Part shown: in pieces, positions 51,921 through 55,249 of the stretch
Layout of the letters: each line of letters opens with the position of its first letter
Position numbering within the stretch: position 1 is the stretch's first letter
Origin: Candidatus Gastranaerophilales bacterium
Lineage (GTDB): Bacteria > Cyanobacteriota > Vampirovibrionia > Gastranaerophilales > Gastranaerophilaceae
Assembly: GCA_944325555.1 (NCBI GenBank)
Contig: CALVAN010000005.1
Span: 1 to 64,000 of the forward strand
Direction of reading: 5' to 3'
Length of the DNA stretch: 64,000 bases
Program-made: the position numbers and the translations under genes
Notes under the pieces: model-generated
Database searches by the model: none
Told to the model about the DNA's origin: nothing
Seen by the model: the letters and a program-made list of their open reading frames with translations, nothing else

Positions 51921-53522
51921 TTGTCTGATATTATCTTGTATGATATTCCGCAAAAATCTTCCGAGATTAATATTTGGATGGCCTTTCCTGCGATGACCTC
52001 TTTTGGAATGTCCTCGCTTGGTTATATGTCTATAGTAAAACGTCTTGATGTAAGAAGCGACTATTATGTTGAAAAGATTTTTACGGATACAACCAACACA
52101 AAACTAAAACCGTGCGATGTCGATGTCATGGGCTTTTCTGTTTCGTTTGAAATTGATTTTCTGGGTATCTTTAAAATTCTCGAGAATTTTAATATTCCGT
52201 TAAAATCCTCTCAAAGGGATGAAACGTACCCGATAATATTTGGTGGCGGACCTGTTTTGACTGCCAATCCGGAGCCTTATTGCGAATTCTTTGACTTTAT
52301 AATCATAGGTGATGCTGAAGAGATTGATACCAATGTAATTGATGTAATAAAAGATAATAAAAATTTAACTAAAAACGAAAAATTACAAAAACTTTCAAAA
52401 GTTAAAGGTATCTATGTTCCTTCTTTGACAAAGTTTGACGAAAAACTCGGAGTACTGACGCTCAACGGGGAACCATACAGCGTTGAAAAAATATCTTCGC
52501 CGTTGTGTGAATGTATAACAACTCCTGTGTTGAGTGAAAACAGTTTCTTTTCAAATACATATGTAATAGAAATTGTACGGGGCTGTCCTCAGCGATGCGG
52601 CTTCTGTCTTGCATCTTATTTGAATCTTCCTTCCCGTTATTGCGACTTAAACAAAATAATAGAAAAAATTGATGAGGGGCTGAAATATACAAACAAAATT
52701 GCTTTGCTCGGAGCATTGATTACTGCTCATCCTCAATTTGAAAAAATTTGTGAATATATTTTAAAAAGAAAACAAGAAGATGTTCCTATGTTGGAATTAT
52801 CGGTTTCTTCTTTGCGTGCGGATTCTATTTCTCCTTTAATTATAAAAACGCTTGTACAGTGCGGACAAAAGCATTCAACTATTGCAATAGAGGCAGGCTC
52901 TGACAGATTGAGAAAACTTATCAACAAAAACCTTACAGAAGCTCAAATATTTGAAACTGTAAAAACAGCTCAGAAATATGGATTAAAAGGCTTGAAAATT
53001 TACGCTATGATAGGTCATCCCAGTGAAACCCAAGAAGATATTGAAGCTTTTGTTGATTTGGCTAAAAAACTGAAAACAGAGTTTAAAGCTTTTGAATTTA
53101 CTTTTTCTTTTGCAACTTTTGTTCCGAAATCTCATACTCCGTTTCAGTTTTGTCAAAGAGAAAGCATAAAATCACTGGAAACGAAATATGAATATCTTAA
53201 AAAGGAATTTCATAAACTGGGTGTCAAAATCAGAACCTCAAGCGTAAAATGGGATTACTGGCAGGCGCTTTTATCAAGGGGTGACAGAAGATTGGCTGAT
53301 TATTTGATTTCCGTGTATAAAAACGGAGGAAATCTGGGTGCATTTAAACAAACTTATAATGAAATGAAAAAAACATGCCAACTTCCTTCTTCTGATTTTT
53401 ATGCAACAGCAGGAAAAGAATTACATGATAATTTGCCATGGGATTTTATAAAAATCACTCCGGGTAAAGAGCATTTAATATCGGAATATAAGCGCCTTTT
53501 AGCTGATTATAACAAAATGTAA
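51921..53522 (+). CDS. B12-binding-type radical SAM protein
   Basis: 533 residues from TTG 51921 (GAGGA 8 nt upstream). The N-terminal ~190 have a B12-binding-like Rossmann fold (MGFSVSFEIDFLGIFKIL, IIFGGGPVLTANPEP), followed by the radical SAM core with the 4Fe-4S/SAM motif Cx3Cx2C (C222, C226, C229; RGCPQRCGFC) and a C-terminal extension. The style matches the family of cobalamin-binding radical SAM enzymes such as those modifying tRNA or lipids; a firm assignment is not possible. Confidence 0.88.
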   Translation: MSDIILYDIPQKSSEINIWMAFPAMTSFGMSSLGYMSIVKRLDVRSDYYVEKIFTDTTNTKLKPCDVDVMGFSVSFEIDFLGIFKILENFNIPLKSSQRDETYPIIFGGGPVLTANPEPYCEFFDFIIIGDAEEIDTNVIDVIKDNKNLTKNEKLQKLSKVKGIYVPSLTKFDEKLGVLTLNGEPYSVEKISSPLCECITTPVLSENSFFSNTYVIEIVRGCPQRCGFCLASYLNLPSRYCDLNKIIEKIDEGLKYTNKIALLGALITAHPQFEKICEYILKRKQEDVPMLELSVSSLRADSISPLIIKTLVQCGQKHSTIAIEAGSDRLRKLINKNLTEAQIFETVKTAQKYGLKGLKIYAMIGHPSETQEDIEAFVDLAKKLKTEFKAFEFTFSFATFVPKSHTPFQFCQRESIKSLETKYEYLKKEFHKLGVKIRTSSVKWDYWQALLSRGDRRLADYLISVYKNGGNLGAFKQTYNEMKKTCQLPSSDFYATAGKELHDNLPWDFIKITPGKEHLISEYKRLLADYNKM

Positions 53523-53553: not shown

Positions 53554-53581
53554 TTGACATAAAATTTTCTTTTGTCATAAT
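53554..53581 (+). promoter_or_regulatory. Sigma-70 promoter of candidate small RNA
   Basis: TTGACA (53554-53559), 16 nt, CATAAT (53576-53581). This is the clearest vegetative promoter in the window, and no protein gene follows it directly. Confidence 0.75.
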
Positions 53582-53587
53582 TAAATA

Positions 53588-53743
53588 TGTAAGGTTTAAG
53601 TGTAGTCGAAACACTAAATAACATCTTAAATTACATTAATAACCCCGAACACATATAAACTCCTAAATAATAAACACAAAAGAGACCATTAGGATGCAGA
53701 AAACAAACCACCCGAACATTAATAATTCGAGTGGCTTTTTTTT
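53588..53743 (+). ncRNA. Candidate small RNA, Yfr1-like layout
   Basis: A roughly 155-nt unit between a strong promoter and a terminator, with no sensible ORF. A 5' hairpin, TTTAAGTGT/ACACTAAA (53596-53618), is followed by A/U-rich single strand containing ACTCCT (53659-53664), complementary to Shine-Dalgarno. TCCTAA (53661-53666) could pair with TTAGGA (53689-53694). The end is CCAC-C-CGAA/TTCG-A-GTGG followed by eight T (53707-53743). The layout resembles cyanobacterial Yfr1 (hairpin - ACUCCU - terminator), but that likeness was judged by eye. The last ~150 nt before fumarase contain nothing else notable. Confidence 0.6.
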
Positions 53744-53890
53744 ATAATTAACTAAAACTTATATATTGTATATCATTTGATATCCAACAAGTGTAAATTT
53801 GACAATAAATAACGATTAAACAAAATATCGTGAATGTTTTCACGATACGGAACGTTTGATTTTCTCCAAAAAGGCATTTATGATTATATA

Positions 53891-55249
53891 ATGATAAAAA
53901 TTGACTCAACAATTATAGAAAAAGCTGTTTATAATTTATGTCTGCAAGCCAATACCTGTTACGACGAGTGTTTATATAATATCCTTTTGAAAAAATTAAA
54001 TGCAGCTGTTTCTTCTGATGATAAATTTAAGTATTCAAATATTTTGAAGAACATAAAATTGGCTTTTGATTCTAAACGTCCTTTATGTCAGGACTGCGGA
54101 CAAGTTGTAGTTTTTGTTAAATATGGTTGTGAATGTATTTGTGATAAACCTGTAAACGAGATAATTAACGCTGCTGTTGAAAAGGCATACACTGAAAATT
54201 GTTTTAGAATGTCGGTTGTAAAAAATGCAATTTTTGAGCGCATTAATACAAATACAAATACTCCCGCTCTAATATATACAGATATAGTTGCCGGTTCAGA
54301 AATTTCTATTGATTTAATGATAAAGGGTGCCGGGTCGGAAAACTGCAGTGCACTGAAAATGTTTAAACCGTCTGCACAAAAAGAAGATATTTATGAATTT
54401 ATTAAAGAAACAATAATTGCGGCAGGAGAAAAGAGCTGCCCGCCAATGACTATAGGAATCGGCATAGGCGGAACAATGGAGTATGCAGCATTGCTTTCAA
54501 AAAAATCTTTTTTCCACAGACAAAATACTGAGGAATTTAATTTTGTAAAAGGTTTAAGAGATTATTTGAAAACTGATGAGTCCAATATTTTAGATATTTA
54601 TCTCATGACAACTTCTACGCATATAGCTTGTTTGCCCGTTGCTATCACTATTAATTGTCACAGTACCAGACATGCATCTGCAACAATATTGCAAAATGAA
54701 GTAAAATATTCTTCAGCTTTTTATGGATATAATGACATAGCTGTAAGTGACGGAAATTTTAAAGAAGTTTTTTGTTCTGATGCACAGATGATACGTTCCT
54801 TAAAAAATGGTGAAAATATTCTTTTGACGGGTGAAATTTATACAGCTCGTGATGCTGCTCATAAAAAGTTTAAAGATTATTTTGAAAAAAACGGAAAGTT
54901 ACCGTTGGATTTTAATAATAAAATTATTTTTTATGCAGGACCCTGCCCTGCAACTGAAGATGAAATCATAGGTCCCGTCGGGCCGACAACTTCTTTTCGT
55001 ATGGATGAATACTGTGAACTTATGTATTCCCAAGGACTGTTGGCAACTATAGGCAAAGGTGAAAGAAGTCTTCATTCGCAAAATATTATAAATAAATATA
55101 AAGGTAAATATTTTACTGCACAAGGCGGGGTTGCTTGTCTTTTGTCAAAATGTGTTAAAACGTCTGAGATTATTGCATTCGGTGAGCTTGGAACAGAAGC
55201 TGTAAGAAAGCTTTATGTCCAAAAATTACCGCTAAAGGTTGTTATCTGA
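53891..55249 (+). CDS. Fumarate hydratase, class I, alpha and beta parts fused
   Basis: 452 residues from ATG 53891 (an upstream TTG extension is rejected). Iron-sulfur fumarase: fumarate + water to malate. The N-terminal Fumerase domain has LCQDCGQ (C66, C69; usual motif CQDTG) and GSENCSALK (C152), then THIACLPVAITINCHSTRHAS. The C-terminal Fumerase_C domain has GEIYTARDAAHKKF and GPVGPTTSFRMDEY. Both halves are in one chain as in FumA-type enzymes. The three cluster ligands could not all be assigned. Fits anaerobic C4 metabolism. Confidence 0.93.
   Translation: MIKIDSTIIEKAVYNLCLQANTCYDECLYNILLKKLNAAVSSDDKFKYSNILKNIKLAFDSKRPLCQDCGQVVVFVKYGCECICDKPVNEIINAAVEKAYTENCFRMSVVKNAIFERINTNTNTPALIYTDIVAGSEISIDLMIKGAGSENCSALKMFKPSAQKEDIYEFIKETIIAAGEKSCPPMTIGIGIGGTMEYAALLSKKSFFHRQNTEEFNFVKGLRDYLKTDESNILDIYLMTTSTHIACLPVAITINCHSTRHASATILQNEVKYSSAFYGYNDIAVSDGNFKEVFCSDAQMIRSLKNGENILLTGEIYTARDAAHKKFKDYFEKNGKLPLDFNNKIIFYAGPCPATEDEIIGPVGPTTSFRMDEYCELMYSQGLLATIGKGERSLHSQNIINKYKGKYFTAQGGVACLLSKCVKTSEIIAFGELGTEAVRKLYVQKLPLKVVI

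Follow-up and report, generated by a model that had tools for sequence, protein, structure and literature searches.

The interval 53554–53743 of the window (by which we mean the whole 64,000-nt stretch analysed, read on its forward strand) holds a promoter, then noncoding sequence, and last an intrinsic terminator. It is a strong candidate for a small RNA gene of Candidatus Gastranaerophilales, and the predicted transcript is best classed as a previously undescribed RNA family that spans this order and shares a new, putative operator with a second gene. We favour the reading, with a probability of roughly 0.6, that the gene encodes a free-standing, trans-acting small RNA (sRNA) of about 155 nt which would be operator-controlled and would act by short, Hfq-independent pairing with mRNAs. 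From the DNA letters and their conservation we infer that the gene is transcribed, that a palindrome behind its promoter serves as a repressor site, and that the RNA acts by base-pairing.

The Gastranaerophilales are gut bacteria, non-photosynthetic sisters of the cyanobacteria, and the RNA was found only in this order. It is conserved over seven families, and a sharp putative operator marks what appears to be a two-gene regulon. These bacteria are difficult to grow in culture, and the 17-bp palindrome and a 25-nt core offer a direct handle on the transcription factor and on the targets.

Limits, distribution and neighbours of the RNA gene

The -35 box TTGACA (53554–53559, plus strand) matches the consensus and is conserved in aligned relatives. 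It is separated by 16 nt from the -10 box CATAAT (53576–53581, plus strand), with a TG two bases 5' of it. Together the boxes agree with the consensus at 11 of 12 positions, and the original prediction of a TTGACA-N16-CATAAT promoter is thereby confirmed. Transcription is predicted to start at about 53588 and to end at an intrinsic terminator (53708–53743, plus strand), which gives an RNA of about 155 nt. The terminator, too, had been proposed from the sequence of this single locus; it consists of the stem CCACCCGAA/TTCGAGTGG followed by eight T, and among 17 sequences four of the seven pairs show two-sided changes, a covariation score reached by none of 500 shuffles. The claim that the unit contains no ORF stood as well, since the conserved stretch contains early stops and differs between genera by single-base indels. 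A short ORF after ATGCAG was considered and rejected. In other genera its frame is shifted or ends immediately, and two loci (L029 and L039) read ATG CAG AAA TAA at the would-be ORF.

The host of the window has a 2.3-Mb genome with a single copy of the RNA gene. Elsewhere there is also usually one copy per genome, and the layout from promoter to terminator is kept. Relatives that carry the RNA belong mostly to Candidatus Gastranaerophilales, an order within Candidatus Melainabacteria. By blastn, the unit is kept in 45 of 59 relatives, at near full length inside family f1. A covariance model of 59 positions (core and terminator) detected the RNA in 313 of 383 Gastranaerophilales genomes at E <= 0.01, a count that includes a doubtful tail of some matches at E of about 0.003–0.007 which lacked the core when inspected. 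Inspection by eye added families f2 to f7, with TTGACA, core and terminator in each and an AGTGT-N7-ACACT palindrome in nearly all of their loci. The original reading was right in that a sister lineage of the cyanobacteria conserves a small RNA gene from promoter to terminator. When 386 genomes drawn from the phylum and 193 from the class were searched, convincing model matches were confined to Gastranaerophilales; weaker ones beyond the order (G587, f37 and f8) were discarded as terminator-like or at noise level. A link to phages was also dismissed, as the sole match on a viral contig (L192) was a chance match within a dense coding region.

The window contains the exact pattern of promoter plus palindrome a single time; shuffled sequences did not contain it. 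Comparison of the window with Rfam gave only chance-level matches, whether gathering thresholds or permissive ones were used, and even at E up to 1 the most diverged loci matched no Rfam family. A literature search for small RNAs of Gastranaerophilales or melainabacteria found none described.

Since the genomes are mostly metagenome-assembled and numerous contigs terminate at the RNA locus, the apparent absence of the RNA from an individual genome may be due to assembly. In the f1 genera g39, g40, g44, g47 and g3, the palindrome is present, as is the small protein gene described below, and an RNA copy is not recognisable. This suggests loss or strong divergence of the RNA, which would therefore be dispensable. 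Contig breaks are unusually frequent at the RNA gene (for example G062:C17:19-77 with G062:C18:1-47, and G007:C53:1-133 with G007:C16:1-104). They probably reflect a near-identical stretch common to co-resident species, and they may mark a hot spot of integration or rearrangement.

The neighbouring genes differ from genus to genus. On the 5' side, outside the RNA gene, lies a gene for a radical SAM protein (51921–53522, plus strand; Pfam PF19864 and PF04055), a neighbour found only in the window's own genus and at L029. On the 3' side lies the gene for fumarate hydratase (53834–55249, plus strand; Pfam PF05681 and PF05683), which adjoins the RNA gene in the own genus only. There, throughout the genus, the RNA is located 5' of the fumarase gene on the same strand with the terminator between them, an arrangement that a cis-regulatory leader of the fumarase (a riboswitch or attenuator) would also have. 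We regard such a leader as highly improbable, because the same RNA precedes different genes in other genera, where the next gene is frequently on the opposite strand, and because the fumarase gene has promoter-like sites of its own. These changing neighbours rule out a general function as fumarase leader and indicate that the RNA is no leader; as far as synteny tells, fumarate hydratase is not controlled via the RNA terminator. With its own promoter and terminator, a noncoding body and no fixed neighbour, the unit has the features of a trans-acting sRNA gene. A 10-bp inverted repeat, ATATCGTGAATGTTTTCACGATAC, is located 5' of the fumarase gene (window 53825–53848) and was scored as terminator-like on the minus strand; it may act as an operator or terminate an antisense transcript.

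Conserved segments and predicted folding

The order-wide invariant is GGAAGAAGAGAnnAUnAGnnnGCAGA, 5' of the terminator, and the core AAGAGACCATTAGGATGCAGAAAAC (53680–53704, plus strand) is recognisable in all seven families examined in the order. Among 128 loci of f1, ACCCC(G/A)AA...ACATATAAACTCCTAAATAATAAACAC.AAAAGAGACCATTAGGATGCAGAAAAC is nearly invariant. Family f1 also conserves a C-rich element, ACCCCGAA (53642–53649, plus strand), that is predicted to be unpaired, and conservation of ACTCCT (53659–53664, plus strand) is restricted to this family. The persistence of ACUCCU in close relatives had been set beforehand as a test for refutation; the segment is indeed kept in 128 distinct f1 loci, and the prediction was not refuted in this respect. 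The bare hexamer is found at chance frequency (18 in the window vs 16.6 expected). Beyond f1, ACTCCT is absent from most loci and GGAAGAAGAGAnnATnAGnnnGCAGA is left, directly 5' of the terminator; true core loci without ACUCCU came only from these other families. One genus of f3 carries a related C-rich string, CATATAATCCCCTATATA, at the place of the f1 element CATATAAACTCCTAAATA, and C-rich elements therefore seem to be gained and lost around a constant core. Neither the 18-mer of the core nor its complement was found elsewhere in the window's genome within three mismatches. A unique core lacking a near-perfect complement fits a trans-acting sRNA that would use short seeds.

The ACTCCT segment had been described as unpaired, and this part of the original prediction did not hold up in folding. 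By minimum free energy and partition function, TCCTAA (53661–53666) and TTAGGA (53689–53694) are predicted to form a stem with a 22-nt loop (53661–53694, plus strand), so that UCCU would pair with UUAGGA of the core. The mean probability of the UCCUAA/UUAGGA stem is 0.88 in the window RNA and 0.85 over 79 relatives, and a six-base complement no farther away than this occurred in 0.4% of mononucleotide shuffles. Covariation for this stem was not detected, as both arms are invariant in f1 save for one genus (L034), in which TTAAGA breaks the stem. Folding of the whole RNA is not exceptional (z -1.36).

A palindrome shared with a small protein gene

The palindrome AGTGT-N7-ACACT is found at 53599–53615. 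Its spacer is variable in sequence and strictly 7 nt in length: 142 instances occur in 848 kb of related loci vs 1.5 in shuffled sequence, and each other spacer length from 3 to 11 nt yielded 0–2 instances. In nearly all loci the palindrome is positioned 43–46 nt from the -35 box. A second palindrome is present in 70 of the 151 loci with sufficient upstream sequence, mostly 107–110 bp 5' of the first and hence outside the transcript. In nine of the 151, a palindrome overlaps the -35 box (AGTGTTGACAnnACACT). Among 26 genomes examined, the number of sites per genome ranged from one to five, with two in the genome of the window.

This element had been taken for a hairpin at the 5' end of the RNA. 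A hairpin that protects the 5' end would agree with the position of the palindrome near the 5' end of the transcript, both at the RNA gene and at the gene for the small protein, and with a mean hairpin probability of 0.64 over 80 relatives. Nevertheless, we consider this role improbable. In the window RNA the probability of the AGTGT/ACACT pair is 0.06, the spacer length is constant, and copies that precede the promoter or overlap its -35 box are off the transcript. The palindrome is conserved in the manner of a DNA operator. Because of the strict N7, the copies that lie off the transcript or overlap the -35 box, and the few sites per genome, the palindrome is most probably read as DNA, that is, as a putative operator to which a dimeric transcription factor would bind. 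As the palindrome follows the transcription start, this factor is probably a repressor.

The second palindrome site of the window's genome (G000:C4:13681-13697; L237:2159-2498) lies just 5' of a gene for a 95-aa protein. The layout of TTGACA, -10 box and palindrome is common to genes for such small proteins in most families of the order, and some genera have two copies of the gene. The proteins (loci L211–L311) are 78–117 aa long, and the member from the window's genome reads MKINSINTYSYSNINNNKQYATRPVF... in part. They are clearly related within families and of similar type between families; comparison with Pfam gave no match above the cut-off. The idea that the RNA is antisense to the small-protein mRNA was abandoned, as RNAduplex gave weak and inconsistent results.

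Mode of action and comparison with known RNAs

In the mechanism we propose, a strong sigma-70 type promoter would drive the RNA, and a dimeric factor, most likely a repressor, would bind AGTGT-N7-ACACT just past the start site. In many genera the factor would have another site about 107 bp upstream, and in some families one across the -35 box. The same factor would control the small protein gene too, so that RNA and small protein would be made together. Transcription would stop at the intrinsic terminator, and the RNA would then pair over short, imperfect stretches with mRNAs through ACCCCGAA, ACUCCU and the GACCAUUAGGAUGCAG core. Pairing would proceed without Hfq, for which a search with the Pfam model found no match. 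Against the gene starts of the window, pairing of the ACUCCU segment was slightly above that of shuffles (z -1.8); pairing of the core was no better than that of shuffles (z -0.5), and no target was found.

The main rival to mRNA pairing is binding of a protein by the core. In this case, the purine-rich GGAAGAAGAGA..GCAGA core would be a protein site, used for titration as in CsrB-type RNAs, and not a seed. Three points are consistent with this explanation: the part conserved order-wide is purine-rich and unsuited to pairing with ribosome-binding sites, the C-rich elements lack order-wide conservation, and no conserved target is known. However, no candidate protein is known either, and each RNA has a single core, so that the transcript would have to be very abundant for titration to work. 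We judge protein binding by the core to be rather unlikely. Somewhat better placed, if still tentative and short of even odds, is an order-specific circuit with two arms, in which one factor would have about two targets per genome (the small RNA and the small lineage-specific protein, in hosts without recognisable Hfq) and the core would bind a protein or RNA partner rather than ribosome-binding sites. Our preferred reading remains an Hfq-independent sRNA that would pair with mRNAs.

Identity with 6S RNA (RF00013) was rejected, as the sole candidate in the genome lies elsewhere and below the cut-off. This candidate (G000:C3:141659-141834, minus strand; L041) scored 34.8 bits with an E-value of 1.9e-5 against a cut-off of 46.4, and it is likely the 6S RNA of the lineage.

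The original prediction had suggested a divergent homologue or an analogue of Yfr1, with hairpin, unpaired ACUCCU, terminator, and pairing with ribosome-binding sites. Yfr1 is defined as an RNA of 54–69 nt with a 5' stem-loop and a terminator stem-loop flanking 16–20 unpaired nt, and with the unpaired motif ACUCCUCACAC (PMC2190773). The two RNAs are alike in being free-standing, in having their own promoter and terminator, and in being near-universal in their lineages; moreover, the Gastranaerophilales RNA has ACUCCU, conserved in f1, the family of the window, and ends in an intrinsic terminator. In contrast, it is over twice as long, lacks the ultraconserved 11-nt motif ACUCCUCACAC and has ACUCCUAAAUA instead, which is itself missing from most loci beyond f1. 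ACUCCU is not order-wide, being absent from most loci of the other families, and prediction places it in a stem. Another element is the invariant one, and trxA and guaB are not among the neighbours. The search with the Yfr1 model that had been advised (RF01116, with a Synechococcus positive control) gave no match in the window's genome; among 244 genomes drawn from the phylum the model matches 109, every one of them listed outside the class of the window. By these comparisons the Gastranaerophilales RNA is not Yfr1, and orthology by divergence is scarcely credible. Yfr1, near-universal in cyanobacteria, was thus not found in any genome of the gut sisters examined, and a literature search found no paper treating Melainabacteria and Yfr1 together. 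By analogy, the RNA may still act in a Yfr1-like manner, through pairing with mRNAs or ribosome-binding sites.

RsaE of Firmicutes is a C-rich sRNA that masks Shine-Dalgarno sequences. The C-rich segments of the Gastranaerophilales RNA (CCCC and CUCCU) could likewise occlude ribosome-binding sites; unlike in the RsaE type, it is the purine-rich core and not the C-rich segments that is conserved order-wide, and there is no Rfam match.

The Yfr2 family of Cyanobacteria provides a parallel in regulation. In Prochlorococcus, the GntR-type regulator PMM1637 binds the motif CGRE1 at the Yfr2 promoter, and this motif is nearly unique in the genome (PMC6778093). The two families differ in that the most diverged Gastranaerophilales loci have no Rfam match at E up to 1. 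They have in common a small RNA that occurs lineage-wide, and the control logic of Yfr2, a dedicated factor at a near-unique promoter motif, resembles that of the putative shared operator of the Gastranaerophilales RNA.
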